Shown here: positions 26 through 6,455 of the stretch, one piece after another
How positions within the stretch are numbered: the first letter of the stretch is position 1
Layout: each line of letters starts with the position of its first letter
Assembly (NCBI GenBank): GCA_021795795.1
Contig: JAJYPA010000327.1
Coordinates: 1 to 8,843, forward strand
DNA: 8,843 bases
Reading direction: 5' to 3'
Origin: Pseudomonadota bacterium
GTDB taxonomy: Bacteria > Pseudomonadota > Gammaproteobacteria > Halothiobacillales > Halothiobacillaceae
Notes under the pieces: model-generated
What the model saw: the letters and a program-made list of their open reading frames with translations, nothing else
Told to the model about the DNA's origin: nothing
Database searches by the model: none
Made by a program: the position numbers and the translations under genes

Positions 26-364
26 CTACTCCGGCAACTGGAACAGGTAGAACTGCCCATCTTCGTCGTAGCAGACATTCGCATAGCGGTGATTGCCGGA
101 TTGCCGAAGGTCGCAGTGCGCCTGAAACACCACATCCGGGTCCCCAAAAGCCAGCAGAGTACCACCCAGCCCGCGAAAATAGGCGGGATCGTCGTCGGTC
201 AGGTCGGTCTCGAATCGATCACAGCCGTGCTGTTCGTTCTGGTCGCGCAATATGGTCAGCAGGTCTAAAAAATCGTTCAGCCCGTCATCTCCCAGACCAC
301 GCAGAATATTTTCAATCTCAACACCGTCGGGGACTTCCATCATCATCGGAAATTCATTGGACAT
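26..364 (-). CDS. Small acidic protein of unknown function
   Basis: A 112-residue open frame that I do not recognise. The start is well supported: an AAGGAG Shine-Dalgarno sequence lies 9 bases before the ATG at 364. The protein is rich in Asp and Glu (for example the FETDLTDDDPAYFRGLGG segment at about residues 51-68), with no signal peptide or membrane segment, so it is probably a soluble cytoplasmic protein. It ends in a region of alternating aromatic and acidic residues (YDEDGQFYLFQLPE). It is the last gene read in a minus-strand series. A copy of the 17-bp promoter-like motif shared with the relaxase and three other genes lies about 65 bases upstream, which suggests co-regulation with mobility functions. 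No function can be assigned. Confidence 0.75.
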   Translation of the reverse strand: MSNEFPMMMEVPDGVEIENILRGLGDDGLNDFLDLLTILRDQNEQHGCDRFETDLTDDDPAYFRGLGGTLLAFGDPDVVFQAHCDLRQSGNHRYANVCYDEDGQFYLFQLPE

Positions 365-403: not shown

Positions 404-479
404 CGGCGTCTGCACCGCCTCAGCACATGCACCGCGCGGGAAGCGGCCGGTGTTGCGGACGGTGTGTGTGCAGACGGCG
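404..479. repeat. Inverted repeat flanking promoter motif copy 1
   Basis: The 9-base arm CGTCTGCAC at 407-415 is perfectly complementary to GTGCAGACG at 468-476. After one mismatch the pairing continues for two more bases on each side. The 52-base interval between the arms contains motif copy 1 (424-452). It lies between the relaxase stop and the gene at 26-364. It could act as an attenuator or terminator stem for relaxase transcripts, or be part of the operator. There is no T tract typical of a simple intrinsic terminator. Confidence 0.35.
424..452 (-). promoter_or_regulatory. Shared promoter-like motif, copy 1
   Basis: On the minus strand this reads CACCGG, then a 17-base core at 446-430, then CATGTG. 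The core matches the consensus CCGCTTCCCGCGCCGTG closely, with differences only near its 3' end. It lies about 65 bases upstream of the start at 364. This copy has the weakest -35-like and -10-like flanks of the five. A GCAACA like that of copy 4 is present, but 3 bases further out. Confidence 0.45.
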
Positions 480-485
480 GGTCTC

Positions 486-2087
486 CTATTCCAGCCCCTT
501 GCCTTTGCCGCGCGGTACGTTATCTATAGCGCCGGAATCCGGAAAATCGCTGTTTTTCCCGGCATCACGCGACTTCCTCCGGGCTTTCTCCACATCCAGC
601 AGGCGTTGACGTTCGAGCAGCAGGCGATGCCACTGTCCGGCAAAACCCACTGCGATCATGCTGGCGGCAGCTTCCGGTGGCTCAGGTGATGCGCCTTTGT
701 GCGCCAGTTCATCATCCAGGGCCTTTTGCATGCGCTCATCGTCATTTTTCATGACGGTGGTAAAGCCTCGCGCCGGAATTTCCAGTCCGTAATCGGTGAC
801 CTTGGTAAACTGGATATCTTTGCCGTCTTTCTGAAAAGAACGGCGCTCGATGGATGCCAATGTGCCGGGATTGAGTTGCCCGTCCCCGCGGGCGGTTTCG
901 ATTTTGTTGTCCTGATAGATGAAATGCGCCCGGCCATCGGTGGCTTCGAGCAGGATATAAGAGCGATCGTTACCCTCATCGAGGCCGGTACCCAGCACCC
1001 GGCCGGTGATCCGCTGTCCCGGCGCCAGCTTGGAGACCACCGGTAGCGACCGGCTGTCGGTCATGAGTTCCCTGTGCTGCAGGAGCATCGTGGAGCGCGT
1101 CTGCAGCACCTCCAGTTCCTTCAGCGCTTTATCCCAACCATCATCCAGTTGCCAGGTCATGTGCCCCACTTTTTGGGCCACACCGATCTCGCACAGGGCG
1201 CCCAAACGGGCCACGCGCTGACGCCGGTCGGCGTATCCTGTATTGTCTTTGACTGGGTCTACCGGCGGCTCGCTGATCAAGTTCCGACCGCCGCCAGCAT
1301 GACCATCGGAGGTGCGCTCCACTTTCTTCATGATTTTCCGGTCCAGTTCGGTGAAGCGGCGCTGGGGAATCTCGCGCTCCAGTCCCTGGCGAATCTCCCG
1401 ATCCGACCGGTAGCCCAGGTCTCGGGTAGCCTCATCCTGCGCCATCTCACGGATACCCGTGCGGATCATCTCCGGCGCTATCTCCAGATTGTGTCCCCCG
1501 CGAATCAGCACGTGAACATGGGGATGCGCGGTGTTGTGGTGATCGATGGCCGCCCACTCCAGCTTCTGGCCCATTTGCTGCTCCATGCGGGCCATGATGC
1601 GCCTGGTGTAGTCCGGCAGGTCCAGGCGGTCGCCGTCTTCCGGTGAGAGGACCATCTTGAAGATTTTCTCATCACCGGCGGACTGCCACTCGTTCGCCTT
1701 GTCCACCAGTGAGACGCCATCGCCGGTGGCGTCAAAGCCTTGCCCGAGTTCGCCCTCCCTCTGCGCCCCTTCACGCTCCAGATATTTTGCATGCGCGGCC
1801 CAATGACCCTTGCCCTTGGCCTGCACCCAGCGCACCCGCACGAATGCGCGGCGGGCATGCGCCTTGTCGGCGGCGGTGCGCTGTTTGGTGGCTTTGGGCC
1901 GCTTGCTGTCAAAGTGGGGCATTTTCGGTTTCATTCCCGCTACGGCTTTATTCCGCATGGTGCGCACCCGGCCCACCGCGTGAGCGGCCTGGGGTTTGTG
2001 AGCGAAATGCTGGTCTGCCCGGCGCTGCTGCTCCCGGTCACGCTCAAGGGCGCGCTCTTCCCTGGATAGGGTGGCCTGATCTTTCAT
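486..2087 (-). CDS. VirD2-type relaxase / mobilization nuclease (DUF3363-like)
   Basis: Conjugative relaxase expected to nick the origin of transfer and pilot single-stranded DNA to a recipient. The histidine metal-binding motif is clear at about residues 182-196 (DHHNTAHPHVHVLIRG, with H188, H190 and H192). Y102 in the upstream segment HAKYLERE is the likely catalytic tyrosine. A basic, charged N-terminus (1-100) precedes the nuclease domain. A second domain at about 345-435, ending near TKVTDYGLEIP, resembles the DUF3363 region of this relaxase family, and a charged helical tail follows. I chose the ATG at 2087 (533 residues) over the one at 2114 because AAAGAGGA lies 8 bases before it. The protein is somewhat short for the family (my recollection is often 600 or more). 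No accessory mob gene is adjacent. Its upstream region holds a motif shared with four other genes. Confidence 0.88.
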   Translation of the reverse strand: MKDQATLSREERALERDREQQRRADQHFAHKPQAAHAVGRVRTMRNKAVAGMKPKMPHFDSKRPKATKQRTAADKAHARRAFVRVRWVQAKGKGHWAAHAKYLEREGAQREGELGQGFDATGDGVSLVDKANEWQSAGDEKIFKMVLSPEDGDRLDLPDYTRRIMARMEQQMGQKLEWAAIDHHNTAHPHVHVLIRGGHNLEIAPEMIRTGIREMAQDEATRDLGYRSDREIRQGLEREIPQRRFTELDRKIMKKVERTSDGHAGGGRNLISEPPVDPVKDNTGYADRRQRVARLGALCEIGVAQKVGHMTWQLDDGWDKALKELEVLQTRSTMLLQHRELMTDSRSLPVVSKLAPGQRITGRVLGTGLDEGNDRSYILLEATDGRAHFIYQDNKIETARGDGQLNPGTLASIERRSFQKDGKDIQFTKVTDYGLEIPARGFTTVMKNDDERMQKALDDELAHKGASPEPPEAAASMIAVGFAGQWHRLLLERQRLLDVEKARRKSRDAGKNSDFPDSGAIDNVPRGKGKGLE

Positions 2088-2114
2088 CCGGTTTCCTCTT
2101 TGTGCCAATTCCAT

Positions 2115-2153
2115 TTATATAGCACCACAAAACGAAAACATGGCGCTATATAA
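2115..2153. repeat. AT-rich inverted repeat upstream of relaxase
   Basis: TTATATAGC at 2115-2123 and GCTATATAA at 2145-2153 are perfect 9-base inverted repeats separated by 21 bases. They lie in the divergent gap between the relaxase and the PP-loop gene, in the most AT-rich stretch of the neighbourhood. The right arm overlaps the -10-like hexamer (TATATA, 2147-2152) proposed for the relaxase promoter, so the repeat could be an autoregulatory operator. Being next to a relaxase start, it is also a candidate for part of an origin of transfer. Neither role can be decided from the sequence. Confidence 0.5.
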
Positions 2154-2175
2154 GTAATATCGGAAGCGGTCTTGC
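2147..2175 (-). promoter_or_regulatory. Shared promoter-like motif, copy 5 (relaxase)
   Basis: On the minus strand: -35-like GCAAGA (2175-2170), a 17-base spacer beginning CCGCTTCC (2169-2153), then TATATA (2152-2147). This copy keeps only the first part of the core but has the best -10 hexamer of the five. The expected transcript start, near 2140, gives a leader of about 50 bases to the relaxase ATG at 2087. Confidence 0.5.
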
Positions 2176-2205
2176 GGACGGCACGTCAGACGAAAGGGGA
2201 ACAGA

Positions 2206-3186
2206 ATGAAGAACGGAACATTGCACATTGTGGGGCTGAGCGGCGGTAAAGATTCCACGGCGACGCTGCTGCTCGCCATCGACCGCAAGGGCCTGGAAAA
2301 CGTCCGGCCGGTATTCGCCGATACCGGGAATGAACACCCGGAGACTTATGCGTACCTGCAATATCTGGAGGAAAGGCTGGATATCGCCGTGGTACGGCTC
2401 AAGCCGGATTTTTCAGGGGAGATAGCCAAAAAGCGGCTGTTCATAGCGCGCGATCGGCGGGTTGGTCGGGATAAGCGTGGAGAGAAAATACGGTGGTCCA
2501 ATAAGGCTAAGCGGCGGGCCTTGGCCGTGTTGCAGCCGGTCGGCAACCCATTCCTGGATCTTTGCATGCTCAAGGGCCGCTTTCCGACCAACCGGGCACG
2601 GTTTTGCACGGAATGGCTCAAGAGGGACACCTTTGTCGAGTATGTGGATGGCGTTACCCAGCAGGAGGGCAGGCCCGTCGTGGTGTGGCAGGGGGTGCGG
2701 CGGGATGAAAGCGATAAGCGGAAGAACGCAAAGAAGATCGAGAGGGTGGCGAAGGGATACTGTAATTTCCGTCCGTTGATAGACTGGACAGTGGAGGATG
2801 TGTTCCGATGCATTGCCGAGCACGGGCTGGACCCGAATCCGCTGTACCAGACGCTGGGCCGGGTCGGGTGCGCCCCGTGCATCTATGCGACCAAAGGGGA
2901 TGTCCGATTGCTCGCGGGAAGCAATGCGATGATTATGGAGCGTGTGCGGGAGTGGGAGCGCCTGGTGGGTCTGTCCAGTAAAAAAGGGTTTGCGGCGTTT
3001 TTTCAGGGCAAAGAGCTCGCGGGAACAAAGCCCGGGGAGGTCAGCGATCTGGTGTTCTGGGAGCGCCACCAGATAGACGGTATCCTGAAATGGGCCGCCA
3101 AGGAGGGGCCTTTCATGAAGGAGGATTGGGGGTTGCACCCTGCAACCCCCCGGTGTGGATCGGAAATGGGACTATGCGGCGACTGA
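2206..3186 (+). CDS. PP-loop protein, PAPS reductase / DndC-like superfamily
   Basis: A 326-residue member of the phosphoadenosine-phosphosulfate-reductase superfamily of adenine-nucleotide PP-loop enzymes. It shows the PP-loop SGGKDS (residues 12-17), the motif FADTGNEHPETY (37-48) and the motif GVRRDES (163-169), all characteristic of the fold. C120, C134 (in RARFCTEW) and the pair C222/C225 (GCAPC) could ligate an iron-sulfur cluster, as in some APS reductases and in DndC. Further cysteines sit near the C-terminus (C317, C324). A GGGGA ribosome site precedes the ATG. It is transcribed away from the relaxase, alone, with no cys genes and no dnd genes in the window. Plasmid and phage relatives of this type are common and mostly uncharacterised, so sulfate assimilation should not be assumed. 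DNA or tRNA sulfur modification, or another nucleotide-activation reaction, is equally possible. Its 3' end overlaps the convergent gene at 3172-3549 by 15 bases. Confidence 0.85.
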   Translation: MKNGTLHIVGLSGGKDSTATLLLAIDRKGLENVRPVFADTGNEHPETYAYLQYLEERLDIAVVRLKPDFSGEIAKKRLFIARDRRVGRDKRGEKIRWSNKAKRRALAVLQPVGNPFLDLCMLKGRFPTNRARFCTEWLKRDTFVEYVDGVTQQEGRPVVVWQGVRRDESDKRKNAKKIERVAKGYCNFRPLIDWTVEDVFRCIAEHGLDPNPLYQTLGRVGCAPCIYATKGDVRLLAGSNAMIMERVREWERLVGLSSKKGFAAFFQGKELAGTKPGEVSDLVFWERHQIDGILKWAAKEGPFMKEDWGLHPATPRCGSEMGLCGD

Positions 3187-3549
3187 TCGCGCCAGAGCCT
3201 GGTGCGAACCCCGTGCCGCTGTTTCCGCACGGATGCGGTCGTACATCAGGACGAATGCCTCATTGATATTATGGATGAGGTCCGGCGCCAGGTAGCCTTC
3301 AAAGATTTCTTCGGCCATTCGCCGGGCTTCGATGTCCTCCATCAGCCAGCGACCCTTGGTCGCCTCGTACTTCCGCCCGTACATCCGGCAACCGTATTCG
3401 CGGGCGGAACCGCGATCAACGACCATCTCCAGCAGAGTGGTCAGGGCGGCCGAGACTTTTGGATCAGGGTGTTCAGAGGGCATGGCCCACAGGCTGTTGG
3501 GGATAGTGATATAGCGTTTCAAAGAATCGGAGAGGGGGTAGGTTTTCAT
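3172..3549 (-). CDS. Conserved-looking small protein of unknown function
   Basis: A 125-residue protein that I do not recognise. The start at 3549 is supported by an AGGAG site 9 bases upstream. It appears largely helical, with runs such as EDIEARRMAEEIFEGY (about 71-86) and INEAFVLMYDRIRAET (about 94-109). There are no membrane segments or signal peptide and a single cysteine (C54). It converges on the PP-loop gene with a 15-base tail-to-tail overlap, so the two transcripts would be antisense at their ends. The promoter-like motif shared with the relaxase lies about 45 bases upstream. Function unknown. Confidence 0.75.
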   Translation of the reverse strand: MKTYPLSDSLKRYITIPNSLWAMPSEHPDPKVSAALTTLLEMVVDRGSAREYGCRMYGRKYEATKGRWLMEDIEARRMAEEIFEGYLAPDLIHNINEAFVLMYDRIRAETAARGSHQALARSVAA

Positions 3550-3593
3550 GATGTTTGCTCCTGAAGTCGGGCCGGACCATCCTGCCCTTGTAA

Positions 3594-3622
3594 CCTATGC
3601 GCAGGGCGGGAAGCGGTGAATA
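3594..3622 (-). promoter_or_regulatory. Shared promoter-like motif, copy 2
   Basis: On the minus strand: TATTCA, a 17-base core (3616-3600) beginning CCGCTTCCCGC, then CATAGG. It lies 45 bases upstream of the start at 3549 and immediately beyond the end of the zeta-toxin-like remnant. Downstream, AGGAG provides the ribosome site for the gene it serves. Confidence 0.55.
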
Positions 3623-3630
3623 TGCCGCGT

Positions 3631-3855
3631 CTACAGCCCCACTTCCCAGGCTCGCCCCAGAAGTTTCTTGGGTACAGACAAGGTGACCCATTCAGGTAGC
3701 CTGCTGCCAAGATGGCGCACTCGTCCGTGTTCTGTGGAGAACAACAACCGTGGTTTCTCCGCTGAGTTATCCAGAACGAACGCGCGATCCGCCCTGGATA
3801 AGGCGCCGGCCAAATTGGCCAGGCTGCGGTGATATCGCCTAGCCTTACAGTGCAA
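3631..3855 (-). pseudogene. C-terminal remnant of a zeta-toxin-like (AAA) kinase
   Basis: A 74-codon frame whose product matches my recollection of the C-terminal part of proteobacterial zeta-toxin-family P-loop kinases: RRYHRSLANLAGAL, then RADRAFVLDNS (about residues 6-30), then a strand-rich LLFSTEHGRVRHLG segment and LPEWV. The Walker A and catalytic regions, which would lie N-terminal, are absent. The resemblance begins about 15 bases after the yhaV stop codon (3845-3847), and the only ATG lies inside the yhaV 3' end, without a convincing ribosome site. I infer that recombination bringing in prlF-yhaV removed the N-terminal part of this gene. An independent small gene translated by read-through from yhaV is possible but less likely. 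The family assignment is from pattern memory only. Confidence 0.6.
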
Positions 3856-4351
3856 TGCCAGCGACGAACCGTTGCAAGCGTTGTCTCTCGGCTCGCGCTT
3901 CGGCCAGCAATTGATTCCAGTCGTCCGGAGGATGGCCGCTTTTCAGCATCTTGCGGAATACCCGGTAGGCGTCGTCTCCGTTCCCGTAGGCGCGTTTGGT
4001 GTCCTCGTCATTGACCCAGGCGAACACGATCACCTTGCTCGGCGCGTGGTAGCGGAAGAACAGCCGATACTGTTGAAAGAACTTGGCCCGGAACCAGTGC
4101 TTGTGCTCGTCGCCGATGGTCTTGCCCTGCCTGTATTCCGGCCGAGCCGGATCTTGCGGGATGACGTCGAACGCCAGCTTGGTGATCGCCGCCAGTCGCT
4201 TGCTGGCGTTCTTCTTCTCGTAGCCGACCGGGTCCTTTTGCTTGAAGGCCTCGACCTGCTGGGCCAGAGCTTCAAGCTGCGCCAGGAATAGCGGGTGAGC
4301 AAAAACCGTCCATCTGTGAATGACTAACGGCGGGATCATGCCTGCGCTCAT
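3845..4351 (-). CDS. yhaV: YhaV-family toxin (type II TA)
   Basis: RelE-superfamily endoribonuclease toxin of 168 residues, a little longer than the approximately 154 of E. coli YhaV. The match runs along the whole protein: WTVFAHPLF (14-22), YEKKNASKRLAAI (44-56), the RelE-type core FRAKFFQQYRLFFRYH (87-102), WVNDEDTKRAYG (112-123) and the tail VFRKMLKSGHPPDDW (131-145). Family knowledge is that it cleaves mRNA/rRNA and is neutralised by PrlF. Its ATG overlaps the prlF stop codon as ATGA, indicating translational coupling with antitoxin first. The extra residues at the C-terminus (about 155-168) lie next to the recombination junction with the zeta-like remnant. The toxin appears intact. Confidence 0.93.
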   Translation of the reverse strand: MSAGMIPPLVIHRWTVFAHPLFLAQLEALAQQVEAFKQKDPVGYEKKNASKRLAAITKLAFDVIPQDPARPEYRQGKTIGDEHKHWFRAKFFQQYRLFFRYHAPSKVIVFAWVNDEDTKRAYGNGDDAYRVFRKMLKSGHPPDDWNQLLAEARAERQRLQRFVAGIAL

Positions 4352-4677
4352 TCATCATCTGCAGACAGGGCGGCATCGAGATCGATTTCAATGCCGCCGA
4401 CCAGCGACTGGAGCCGTTGGACCAGGGCAACATCAACTGCCTGCAGGCGCTCAGGATGGCTGGCGATGTCGCGAGCCAGAAAGTCCAGGAACTGGCCGAG
4501 CACCGGGTCGTCTCCATCGGAGGCTTCGGCGCGCGTCAGCACAACTTCGCCGCTGGGGCGGATCGTGTAGTGAATCTTGTCGCGCTTGGCAAGTCGAAGG
4601 GCGTGACGCACGGTTTCCGGCACCGTCGTCTGGTAGCGGTCAGTCAACGTGGATTCGACTTCGAGGGTGGCGGGCAT
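4348..4677 (-). CDS. prlF: PrlF-family antitoxin (AbrB-like)
   Basis: A 109-residue antitoxin partner of YhaV, close to the 111 of E. coli PrlF (SohA). Residues 6-50 form the AbrB/MazE-type DNA-binding domain (TDRYQTTVPETVRHAL, then KIHYTIRPSGEVVLTR). The C-terminal half (FLDFLARDI, then LVGGIEIDLD, ending SADDE) matches the toxin-binding part of PrlF. GGAGAG precedes the ATG. Antitoxins of this family repress their own operon, alone or with the toxin. An imperfect palindrome overlapping the proposed -10 (4704-4720) fits that role. It is the first gene of the operon and overlaps yhaV by 4 bases. Confidence 0.92.
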   Translation of the reverse strand: MPATLEVESTLTDRYQTTVPETVRHALRLAKRDKIHYTIRPSGEVVLTRAEASDGDDPVLGQFLDFLARDIASHPERLQAVDVALVQRLQSLVGGIEIDLDAALSADDE

Positions 4678-4703
4678 GGCGCTCTCCGGCTAAAGGTGAG
4701 GAT

Positions 4704-4739
4704 GCTTTACATGGTAATGCAATCGCCTTGTCTTATCAA
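4704..4739 (-). promoter_or_regulatory. prlF-yhaV promoter with overlapping palindrome
   Basis: On the minus strand, TTGATA (4739-4734), a 17-base spacer and TACCAT (4716-4711) form a reasonable sigma-70 promoter, about 35 bases upstream of the prlF ATG. The -10 is embedded in the dyad GCATTAC-CAT-GTAAAGC (4720-4704), which is symmetric apart from one base pair. That is where an AbrB-type autorepressor would block RNA polymerase. Confidence 0.6.
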
Positions 4740-4815
4740 AGCGGGAAGACGAAGCTGGCGGATACCCCTTCCAGGTGGTGCGCTGTCGGCCCGGCAACGA
4801 TCCAGAGTTGTGGCA

Positions 4816-5040
4816 TTACATCTCCCGGACGACCGTCTCTTCACCCGAACCGCTGATCTTGATCAACTGCTTGCGGCCCCCCGGAAATTTTTTGATCACC
4901 ATGCCAGGATAACGCTCGTCTCCACAATAGATGGGACGCCCAGCGGCCAAATGCGCTCTGGCGGCGCGACCTTCATTTTTGGCCAAGGCTCTGGCGAAGG
5001 ATGGGGACGAAAGGAATGATTCGTCTCTGGATTGTGGCAT
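4816..5040 (-). CDS. Small basic protein of unknown function
   Basis: A 74-residue protein that I do not recognise. The start at 5040 has an excellent AGAGGAG site 8 bases upstream. The N-terminal half is Ala/Arg-rich and probably helical (SPSFARALAKNEGRAARAHLAAGR). The C-terminal half looks beta-rich and ends in polar residues (YPGMVIKKFPGGRKQLIKISGSGEE). It carries one cysteine (C39) and no membrane segment. It lies 117 bases downstream of the gene at 5158-5406 on the same strand, so the two could share a transcript. That gap shows no clear terminator and no copy of the shared promoter motif. Confidence 0.7.
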   Translation of the reverse strand: MPQSRDESFLSSPSFARALAKNEGRAARAHLAAGRPIYCGDERYPGMVIKKFPGGRKQLIKISGSGEETVVREM

Positions 5041-5157
5041 GGTGCGACTCCTCTTTACCGCAGATGGCTTTGGTTTACCCCAATGATACGCCGAGTTGGT
5101 TGGCGACGGATAGCCGGTCGATTGGTCCGCCGCCAGTTTTTATCTGCTGCCAGGATC

Positions 5158-5406
5158 TCAGGCGGCTATCCGGTGGATGCCATACTTGGCCCGGAGATAT
5201 TCGATCTCGTGCATGGCGGCCTGGACGGTGTCGGACACGAGATAGTTGATCTCGGTCTCATGCCCCGGATACACGCTCACCAGAACAAAGCGGTTTGCTT
5301 CATAATCACGGGCCAGCCCGGTGAAATGCGGTATCGGCTCGCCGGTGGCGCAGTCACATACGCGCAGGTGGCCTTTTTCCAGAATGATGAATGGCGGATT
5401 TTTCAT
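5158..5406 (-). CDS. Small protein of unknown function with tandem-repeat leader
   Basis: An 82-residue protein that I do not recognise. I place the start at the ATG at 5406, because AGAGGA lies 8 bases before it. The same frame stays open up to a GTG at 5508, but that extension would merely translate the 16-bp tandem repeats. The protein starts MKNPPFIILEKGHLRVCDCATGEP, suggesting a beta-rich N-terminal half, and ends in a helical stretch DTVQAAMHEIEYLRAKYG (about 59-76). Two cysteines occur close together (C17, C19). No signal peptide or membrane segment is visible. Upstream are three 16-bp repeats and then motif copy 3, giving an unusually long leader compared with the other motif-bearing genes. 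Confidence 0.72.
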   Translation of the reverse strand: MKNPPFIILEKGHLRVCDCATGEPIPHFTGLARDYEANRFVLVSVYPGHETEINYLVSDTVQAAMHEIEYLRAKYGIHRIAA

Positions 5407-5450
5407 GATGGCGTTCCTCTCTGGTGATGGGGTGGGCTTGCCGTCAACAT

Positions 5451-5498
5451 GACTTGCAGTCTGCAGGACTTGCAGTCGGCAGGACTTGCAGTCGGCAT
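5451..5498. repeat. Three 16-bp tandem repeats (iteron-like)
   Basis: Three contiguous copies of GACTTGCAGTCGGCAG occupy 5451-5466, 5467-5482 and 5483-5498. The first differs by one base inside the unit and the third by its last base. Each unit contains the small dyad GACT-TGC-AGTC, so it resembles a protein-binding iteron. The array lies between motif copy 3 and the ribosome site of the gene at 5158-5406, that is, in that gene's leader if the motif is its promoter. Confidence 0.85.
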
Positions 5499-5516
5499 GA
5501 CCATCCACCCCTCTAT

Positions 5517-5545
5517 GCTATGCACGGCGCGGGAAGCGGTCTGGC
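5517..5545 (-). promoter_or_regulatory. Shared promoter-like motif, copy 3
   Basis: On the minus strand: GCCAGA (5545-5540), the exact consensus core CCGCTTCCCGCGCCGTG (5539-5523), then CATAGC (5522-5517). The start of the gene it would serve is at 5406, leaving a leader of about 105 bases that carries the tandem repeats. Confidence 0.58.
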
Positions 5546-5553
5546 AACAAAGA

Positions 5554-5829
5554 CTAAATTTTTGCACACAGGTAACTGTCGTCGCCCCATGGCCTGTCAA
5601 TGTTCACTGCTGTCCAGCGCACGCACTGCATAACAAAGGGCAGGCTATTCGCCAGGTGCATCAGGACGTCAACAGGCAGCAGGCCCGTTTTGATGCCGAT
5701 GAGCAAGTCACCGGCTGCAGACAGCATGTCCGGGTCTTGTTGATATACGATGGCCACCGCGTGGACCATAGCTGAGGCTTTGTGCTCAAGGTAGGTCTGG
5801 TCTGGGGTGAGATGGACTACTGCAGTCAT
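5554..5829 (-). CDS. Small protein of unknown function
   Basis: A 91-residue protein that I do not recognise. I place the start at the ATG at 5829, preceded by GAGGA at good spacing. A longer frame opens upstream, but its earliest ATG (5898) would run through motif copy 4 and has no ribosome site. The sequence is rich in hydrophobic residues with an amphipathic helical look (residues 20-30 MVHAVAIV; 36-62 LSAAGDLLIGIKTGLLPVDVL). None of these is long or pure enough for me to call a membrane segment. The C-terminus is polar (RPWGDDSYLCAKI). Motif copy 4 is about 32 bases upstream, the closest spacing of the five. Confidence 0.7.
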   Translation of the reverse strand: MTAVVHLTPDQTYLEHKASAMVHAVAIVYQQDPDMLSAAGDLLIGIKTGLLPVDVLMHLANSLPFVMQCVRWTAVNIDRPWGDDSYLCAKI

Positions 5830-5860
5830 GGCTGCTTTTCCTCGTGATAGTGGTTGACAG

Positions 5861-5889
5861 GCTATGCACGGAAAGGGAAGCGGTGTTGC
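5861..5889 (-). promoter_or_regulatory. Shared promoter-like motif, copy 4
   Basis: On the minus strand: GCAACA (5889-5884, matching the ACA end of TTGACA), a 17-base core (5883-5867) beginning CCGCTTCCC, then CATAGC (5866-5861). The middle of the core differs from the consensus in three bases. It lies just upstream of the gene starting at 5829. Confidence 0.58.
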
Positions 5890-5913: not shown

Positions 5914-6051
5914 TTAACTTGTTTCCGGCTTGTCCGGTTGGAGTCTCTGGATAGCTTCGTGCAGTTCAGAGCGGCCTTGGGTGGCGATCGCAAGCTGCCC
6001 AAGGTGTGAAGATTGGCCCCCTCTTGTAGGGGGCTTTGCTTTAAATGAGCC
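5914..6051 (-). other. Possible decayed minus-strand coding fragment
   Basis: A 45-codon open stretch with no usable start codon, closed by TAA at 5914-5916. Its last 30 codons read like protein (LGQLAIATQGRSELHEA, then IQRLQPDKPETS), with an amphipathic helical pattern. It could be the 3' remnant of a gene cut by insertion of the MazF-like toxin gene, whose start lies at its upstream edge. The evidence is composition and plausibility only, and it could be chance. Confidence 0.25.
6016..6042 (+). terminator. GC hairpin with T-rich tail before the MazF-like gene
   Basis: GCCCCC (6016-6021), the 7-base loop TCTTGTA, and GGGGGC (6029-6034) form a perfect 6-bp stem followed by TTTGCTTT. It has the shape of an intrinsic terminator on the plus strand, yet no plus-strand gene precedes it. 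The AGGGGG at 6028-6033, inside the stem, is the only Shine-Dalgarno candidate for the toxin gene at 6045, so the hairpin may instead restrict its expression. Confidence 0.5.
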
Positions 6052-6455
6052 TCAGCATGCCTCTGCAAACATTTTACCCAAAGCGCGGACACGTCCTGAT
6101 CTGCGACTTTACGCAAGGTTTCGTTATGCCAGAAATGTTGAAAGTACGACCAGTGGTCGTGATTTCGCACGGCGATACGCACCAAAGGCGTCTATGCACC
6201 GTGGTCCCACTATCAACTACAGATCCTGACCCCGTGAAGGATTGGCACTATCTATTGAAGAGCCAGCCGCTCGAAAGCATCGGATACCAGAAGGTATGGG
6301 CAAAAGCCGATATGCTCTACACGGTGTCATTCAGCCGTCTCGATAAGCCACATAGAAACACAGCGCGCGGGCGGCAATACTTCACACCACGACTCGATCA
6401 GGTGGATCTTGCTGGTGTCATTGCGGCGGTCCAGGCGTATCTTCGGCTCACATAG
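6045..6455 (+). CDS. MazF/PemK-like toxin, apparently without antitoxin
   Basis: A 136-residue protein with the features of the PemK/MazF endoribonuclease fold: GHVLICDF (15-22) at the first strand, KVRPVVVIS (33-41, containing the conserved RPVVV) and CTVVPLSTT (51-59). W85 and the segment KADMLYTVSFSRLDK (87-101) follow. It matches a proteobacterial subgroup of about 130 residues that I recall with the pattern VLICDF, PEM, RPVVV, CTVVPLST, DML, VSF, RLD. The family cleaves mRNA at short sequences. The start is uncertain: ATG at 6045 has AGGGGG 11 bases upstream, whereas ATG at 6057 better fits the usual N-terminus but has no ribosome site. The adjacent 200 bases upstream hold no plus-strand antitoxin gene that I can see. 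It may be an orphan, or its antitoxin may be decayed or encoded elsewhere. Confidence 0.82.
   Translation: MSLSMPLQTFYPKRGHVLICDFTQGFVMPEMLKVRPVVVISHGDTHQRRLCTVVPLSTTDPDPVKDWHYLLKSQPLESIGYQKVWAKADMLYTVSFSRLDKPHRNTARGRQYFTPRLDQVDLAGVIAAVQAYLRLT

Follow-up and report, generated by a model that had tools for sequence, protein, structure and literature searches.

In IncP plasmids the Kor operators are palindromic, and one type of site stands at the promoters of transfer genes and of orphan genes. The cluster A mycobacteriophages (L5-type) carry operators and stoperators of 13 base pairs (bp) in more than 20 copies, which have a known repressor (PMC9283540). On p576, a plasmid of the pLS20 family, the EGeRS2 / Reg operators are dual heptamers located beside strong promoters and controlled by a ribbon-helix-helix repressor (PMC8708921). 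Here, we describe a repeated asymmetric site in an 8,843-nucleotide (nt) stretch of DNA from a Pseudomonadota bacterium (contig JAJYPA010000327.1 of assembly GCA_021795795.1; this whole stretch is termed the window below), which carries a relaxase gene and, judging from its sequence, most probably derives from a plasmid or integrated element of Acidithiobacillus. Four clear copies of the site occur in one orientation in intergenic DNA, each upstream of a gene for a small orphan protein, and the set as such is absent from the collections searched. The four copies, all found at the positions given in a first-pass annotation of this DNA, are as follows (the rank is that obtained with a leave-one-out matrix).

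424 to 462, minus strand: site s1, before the gene for a 112-amino-acid (aa) protein; core 430-446; rank 1 of 17,638 positions
3594 to 3622, minus strand: site s3, before the 125-aa gene; core 3600-3616; rank 1
5517 to 5545, minus strand: site s4, the best copy, before the 82-aa gene; core 5523-5539; rank 1
5861 to 5889, minus strand: site s5, before the 91-aa gene; core 5867-5883; rank 1

The four-copy repeat is real. Its minus-strand consensus is GCMASACCGCTTCCCGCGCCGTGCATAGC, about 23-29 bp in length, with the strongest parts in ACCGCTTCCC and GTGCATAG. The pattern CCGCTTCCCGCGCCGTG matches the window four times with no more than three mismatches, compared with a mean of 0.10 and a maximum of 1 in 200 shuffled sequences. 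Since this pattern came from the window itself, a de novo test of repeated 22-mers was also run, in which the most repeated 22-mer of the window has four copies at three, four and five mismatches alike. For 150 dinucleotide shuffles, the corresponding number at three mismatches was one copy in 116 shuffles and two copies in 34, and never three; three copies were reached in 2 of the 150 at four mismatches and in 59 at five, and four copies in none at either setting. A looser test (24-mers, six mismatches) gave four copies in 1 of 12 shuffles; therefore, the argument rests on the strict setting. Among real segments of the same length (n = 80, from 52 loci), at least three copies at three mismatches were present in five, and more than three in only one, which is a regular array. 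The leave-one-out scores of the four sites range from 18.8 to 29.3 bits, compared with 9.5 to 11.0 for the runner-up positions. In addition, ACCGCTTCC occurs four times in the window versus 0.092 expected.

The placement of the copies is also regular. Together with a partial copy before the relaxase gene (s2, see below), all five lie on the minus strand, ahead of minus-strand starts and, under the gene calls applied, in intergenic DNA. The distance from core to ATG is about 82 nt for the 112-aa gene, 82 nt for the relaxase gene, 67 nt for the 125-aa gene, 133 nt for the 82-aa gene and 54 nt for the 91-aa gene; with the upstream zone taken as 130 nt, which comprises about 6% of positions, s4 is just outside. 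The common orientation before minus-strand genes, as first annotated, is thus confirmed for all five copies at 54-133 nt from the starts, and so is the absence of the motif from the plus-strand genes, from prlF-yhaV and from the gene at 4816, the next score on either strand being 9.0, compared with 23.3 for the lowest-scoring site among the five. Scatter of the motif, including inside genes, had been named as a sign that the idea was wrong; as far as this could be tested, none of the five window copies lies within a gene, and related genomes match at the rate of a control (see below). Orientation, intergenic placing and strong conservation agree with a common regulatory site in front of the four orphan genes, and the interpretation first proposed is partly supported. 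The 82-aa gene has a longer leader than the others, and this leader also holds a repeat with a 16-bp period at 5434-5497 (GACTTGCAGTCNGCAG type, about three units).

The fifth copy, for which the first-pass annotation had itself noted a reduced match, is a partial one that matches in its upstream half only. The features around it are listed below.

486 to 2087, minus strand: gene for a MobA/VirD2-type relaxase with DUF3363 (Pfam PF11843 and PF03432); product 97% identical to P0001
2147 to 2181, minus strand: partial site s2, before the relaxase gene; GCAAGACCGCTTCC matches, and the downstream half is mostly without match
2115 to 2153, no strand assigned: inverted repeat TTATATAGCaCCA / TGGcGCTATATAA with 13-nt arms and a 13-nt loop, read by eye

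In s2, CCGCTTCC and the upstream GCAAGA match the consensus, and columns 9-18 mismatch. With a 23-column matrix trained without s2, the site ranks sixth; with a matrix restricted to the upstream half (9 bases of the core and the 6 that precede it, three training sets per matrix), it ranks 1, 1 and 1, at 15.9 to 18.3 bits versus 11.2 to 11.6 for the next position. The window contains CCGCTTCC five times, always at one of the five sites, versus 0.52 expected, so a single chance occurrence would not be surprising. Besides, s2 has CCGTCCGCAASACCG in common with s1 (14 of 15 positions), where the upstream block CCGTCCGCAACACCG at 448-462 is 4 nt farther from the core than in s2. The tested part of the shared block (12 of 15) was attained by 2 of 300 shuffles, and this was the sole notable pair among the 10 pairs of sites. 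The inverted repeat overlaps the TATATA upstream of the relaxase gene, immediately downstream of s2, and is probably a separate operator or part of a transfer origin. On sequence grounds, the relaxase gene may be a fifth and weaker member of the set, which has the upstream half only and a palindrome of its own.

Then, does the motif occur elsewhere? When 29 Acidithiobacillaceae genomes were scanned at three mismatches, three had a single match, compared with four that had a single match to the reversed control, and a scan of 8 genomes gave the same three single matches. In the same 29 genomes, relatives of the relaxase are present at 20 places in 12 genomes, none more than 49% identical to the window relaxase, and the upstream stretches of the 13 Acidithiobacillus relaxase loci listed differ from that of the window. 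Viral contigs (IMG/VR) contained no match to one pattern and one lone match to another, which is located within a 521-aa frame that resembles a terminase gene by eye (L067); a third pattern, of 14 bases, matched at least 120 stretches and is too short to inform. A blastn search of plasmids with the motif returned 15 records, all with expectation values (E) of about 6, and the exact 22-mer consensus was found in none of 208 loci. Ten of 187 loci have a single match at five or fewer mismatches, four of which (L064-L067) had been chosen for that match. No description of the motif was found in the literature, among the titles and abstract beginnings of the matches listed. Motif and genes alike thus seem to be private to a single lineage of elements, as far as these sequences indicate. 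Several copies lie upstream of the genes of one element and the motif is rare elsewhere, as in an element-private repeated operator set. Considering the control rate in the 29 genomes and the one lone match in IMG/VR, the cognate factor is expected to come from the element itself.

A sister Acidithiobacillus family (L002, L003 and L011) likewise has a repeated site near a related relaxase. In L011, the palindrome GTCTTCNGAAGAC is present in 11 copies in 16 kb versus 0.42 expected. L011, L003 and L002 have 11, 9 and 5 copies, respectively, compared with 1, 0 and 0 for the reversed control, and the window has none. Unlike the motif of the window, GTCTTCNGAAGAC is palindromic and also occurs inside open reading frames, one of them the relaxase frame of L011. 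There is no general enrichment of GTCTTCNGAAGAC, with 91 occurrences over all loci versus 95 for the reversed control. At one mismatch, eight of its nine places in one genome (G008) are on the relaxase contig. GTCTTCNGAAGAC is possibly a partition site, an operator or some other element-specific site. Element-owned repeated sites are therefore seen in at least one sister family, which is our support for sites of this kind. As a separate observation, L004:750-19440 contains six copies of TTCCGAGCNGCTCGGAA at three or fewer mismatches (expected 0.22); a T run follows at least one copy, and these are perhaps terminators.

The genes downstream of the four clear sites are the following.

26 to 364, minus strand: orphan gene, 112 aa; 15 homologues found
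3172 to 3549, minus strand: orphan gene, 125 aa; 3 homologues among 5.8 billion proteins
5158 to 5406, minus strand: orphan gene, 82 aa; one weak relative in the 29 genomes
5554 to 5829, minus strand: orphan gene, 91 aa; without a family match, and with no relative among the plasmids or the 29 genomes searched

None of the four matches Pfam, NCBIfam, PHROGs or PADLOC. The search of 5.8 billion proteins, made for the 112-aa and 125-aa proteins, was restricted to relatives with shared exact words; the single organism-named one among the 15 homologues of the 112-aa protein is from Acidithiobacillus ferrooxidans. This family has no match in the 29 genomes, 369 genomes, viral contigs or plasmids, and the 125-aa and 91-aa proteins have none in the 29 genomes, plasmids or viral contigs. 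The 82-aa protein has none in viral contigs, and its sole weak relative in the 29 genomes is at 32% (E 3.8e-4). It should be noted that empty protein searches say little without a positive case, and that the relaxase search, positive in 12 of the 29 genomes, shows merely that the method works. The AlphaFold2 (AF2) model of the 112-aa protein, with a predicted local distance difference test score (pLDDT) of 77.7, has no PDB match at E of 0.001 or less, and the predicted fold of the 125-aa protein (pLDDT 53) was not used. One homologue of the 112-aa protein, P0130, is labelled 'ferritin family protein' by its source, a label for which neither the Pfam scan nor the model of the window protein gives support. 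The closest relatives of the window proteins (P0001-P0004, P0121-P0138) are known here as proteins only.

How could such a set be explained? We give slightly better than an even chance to a single element-encoded regulator that reads the asymmetric site and co-controls the four orphan genes, and possibly the relaxase gene. That is, a predicted DNA-binding protein, encoded by the element in a gene unrecognised in the window, would contact the site as an oriented monomer or as a two-domain protein, and would set the activity of all four orphan promoters jointly. We infer protein binding, co-regulation and an activator beside a weak promoter; this would be preferred to a repressor acting on a strong promoter, since good sigma-70 hexamers are missing from most of the sites.

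The hexamers were scored with E. coli sigma-70 frequencies and self-set spacing penalties, and each score is expressed as a percentile of all window positions. The -35/-10 pairs for which exact sigma-70 spacing had been claimed are at percentiles 13.9 (s1), 96.0 (s2), 93.4 (s3), 72.3 (s4) and 86.8 (s5), so that the claim is mostly not borne out, and each upstream region holds pairs that score above the claimed ones. For example, a pair shifted by 2 nt inside s3 (TTCACC-17-TAGGTT) reaches percentile 99.8, and a 19-bp spacer with TTGCCA in s4 reaches percentile 98.3. With the 19-bp spacer, s1 and s5 score 36.6 and 88.8, and a good -35 at this distance exists in s4 only. The top-scoring pair among the eight regions examined belongs to prlF, which is motif-free, and a consensus scan finds its sole sigma-70-like site in the window there (3.8 expected from shuffles). 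Exact sigma-70 spacing in the conserved register is consequently not supported, and an activator-dependent promoter with weak hexamers is a possibility.

The spacer had further been described as more conserved than the hexamers. Its first eight columns are indeed invariant; however, the AT of the '-10' is equally so. Nor is the comparison with MerR-type activators supported: MerR promoters have a spacer of 19-20 bp, compared with the 17 claimed here, the hexamers are mostly poor, and the best dyad symmetry of the consensus is 4 of 8 pairs, which is equalled by 94% of scrambles. With no dyad symmetry and no shared fold, a MerR-type arrangement is therefore unsupported, there being no dyad-symmetric operator in the spacer and, apart from s4, no good -35 at 19 bp.

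Mostly poor sigma-70 hexamers would also suit a repeat that serves directly as a promoter, read by a dedicated sigma factor (element-encoded or alternative) without any additional regulator, and so would an oriented, asymmetric site in which the spacing from the upstream block to GTGCATAG is fixed in four sites. However, the invariant columns correspond to CCGCTTCC, in the middle of the site, and sigma factors contact the middle of the promoter spacer little. No sigma-factor gene is present among the window proteins scanned, and such a promoter seems unlikely. A second alternative is descent: a promoter/leader module may have been copied along with small gene cassettes, and be shared with no common regulator. 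Sites s4 and s5, 344 bp apart, are 83% alike over 30 nt, and the genes are a mosaic of orphans. Yet similarity among the sites stops at about 30 nt, beyond which no run of three or more invariant columns follows; nor do the leaders, from site to ATG, have an additional common block. This is what a binding site would give, rather than duplicated genes; selection on the site explains the pattern better, and copying with cassettes is unlikely too.

A regulon for establishment or transfer, made up of all five units of an uncharacterised Acidithiobacillus element and switched by a regulator that reads the long asymmetric site as a monomer, is quite unlikely; if it exists, the four orphan proteins would help the element to settle in a new acidophile host. 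A repressor-controlled establishment regulon as in p576, whose strong promoters would be silent in the donor and briefly on after transfer, would fit a number of small orphan units that have one site in common and a relaxase gene nearby. It is distinctly improbable, considering that the promoters here mostly look weak and that the proteins scanned revealed neither a ribbon-helix-helix repressor nor an anti-restriction gene.

An element that acts in RNA or single-stranded DNA, by leader control or as a Frpo-type promoter, is highly improbable. The relaxase gene is near, the copies share one orientation, and GCTATGC / GCATAGC, which are paired in the predicted fold, flank s5 and no other site. 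However, no common structure was found for stretches of 69, 149 and 269 nt on both strands, with fold z-scores from -1.99 to 1.10 compared with a background mean of -0.42 and standard deviation of 1.09 (29 stretches of 149 nt), and the one Rfam match in the window is far under the gathering score and away from the sites. The single-stranded Frpo promoter is likewise unsupported, with no hairpin common to the copies and no consistent fold. Finally, chance or composition, although the G+C content of the window is 58%, the relaxase copy alone could have arisen by chance and one loose-setting shuffle did hold four copies, is extremely improbable, and for four copies at the strict setting it is refuted by the shuffles, none of the 150 having three copies at three mismatches or four at five.

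Several observations weigh against the single element-encoded regulator that we prefer. None of the window proteins that were scanned was recognised as a regulator. The choice of activator over repressor depends entirely on the hexamer scores, with their E. coli frequencies and self-set penalties, and both s3 and s4 have acceptable pairs once the register or the spacing is allowed to shift. On the minus strand, prlF-yhaV, 74 aa and 162 aa/umuC are units without the site, which is thus not element-wide, and no second example of the motif set was found in the collections searched. As for the relaxase gene, s2 ranks 2, 5 and 2; 10, 12 and 13; and 4, 6 and 24 with three longer matrices, so that its proposed membership in the regulon is weakly supported. 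In the sister family, GTCTTCNGAAGAC at one mismatch has 5 of 15 places on the relaxase contig and 5 more on one other contig in G003, and 1 of 12 on the relaxase contig and 5 on one other contig in G002; the totals are near those of the control (15 vs. 10 and 12 vs. 11, respectively).

The window was assigned to an Acidithiobacillus element because its relaxase is 97% identical to P0001, a protein from an Acidithiobacillus sp. metagenome-assembled genome by its source name. The relaxase start was corrected to the ATG at 2087, matching this homologue. No near match to the window was found among 72,556 plasmids. Besides the DUF3363 relaxase, the window genes include a lone PAPS-reductase-like gene, prlF-yhaV, a MazF-like toxin gene and a umuC-like gene. 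The PAPS-reductase-like gene (2206-3186), divergent from the relaxase gene, matches the SspD, BrxP and DndC models in part, and the phage family phrog_424 strongly. The MazF/PemK-like toxin gene is located at 6045-6455 on the plus strand, and the motif-free 74-aa gene at 4816-5040 has a match (E 1.4e-8) to the phage family phrog_21003, whose function is unknown.

If the co-regulation is true, four rare proteins of unknown function would join one programme, possibly including DNA transfer, which would provide a handle on the roles of the orphans and on the control of mobile elements in bioleaching bacteria. The sequence of the site can also guide searches for the remainder of the element and for the regulator.

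How does this set compare with the systems introduced above? Unlike the palindromic Kor sites of IncP plasmids, the motif is without a palindrome. By analogy, the closest published mechanisms would be the cluster A sites and the Reg operators of p576. Like the cluster A sites, the sites of the window are short, asymmetric, present in multiple copies per element, located in promoters and gaps, and oriented with transcription (PMC9283540). Unlike these sites, with their 13 bp, more than 20 copies and known repressor, there are 4-5 copies of about 23-29 bp here, and none of the proteins scanned was recognised as the regulator. As in p576, a single type of operator precedes several operons of a transmissible element, which are small, variable and for the most part unknown (PMC8708921); unlike p576, the site here is a single asymmetric block, the promoter matches are mostly weak and no repressor was found. 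Element-private repeated regulatory sites are an already known kind, and the present set is a further case.

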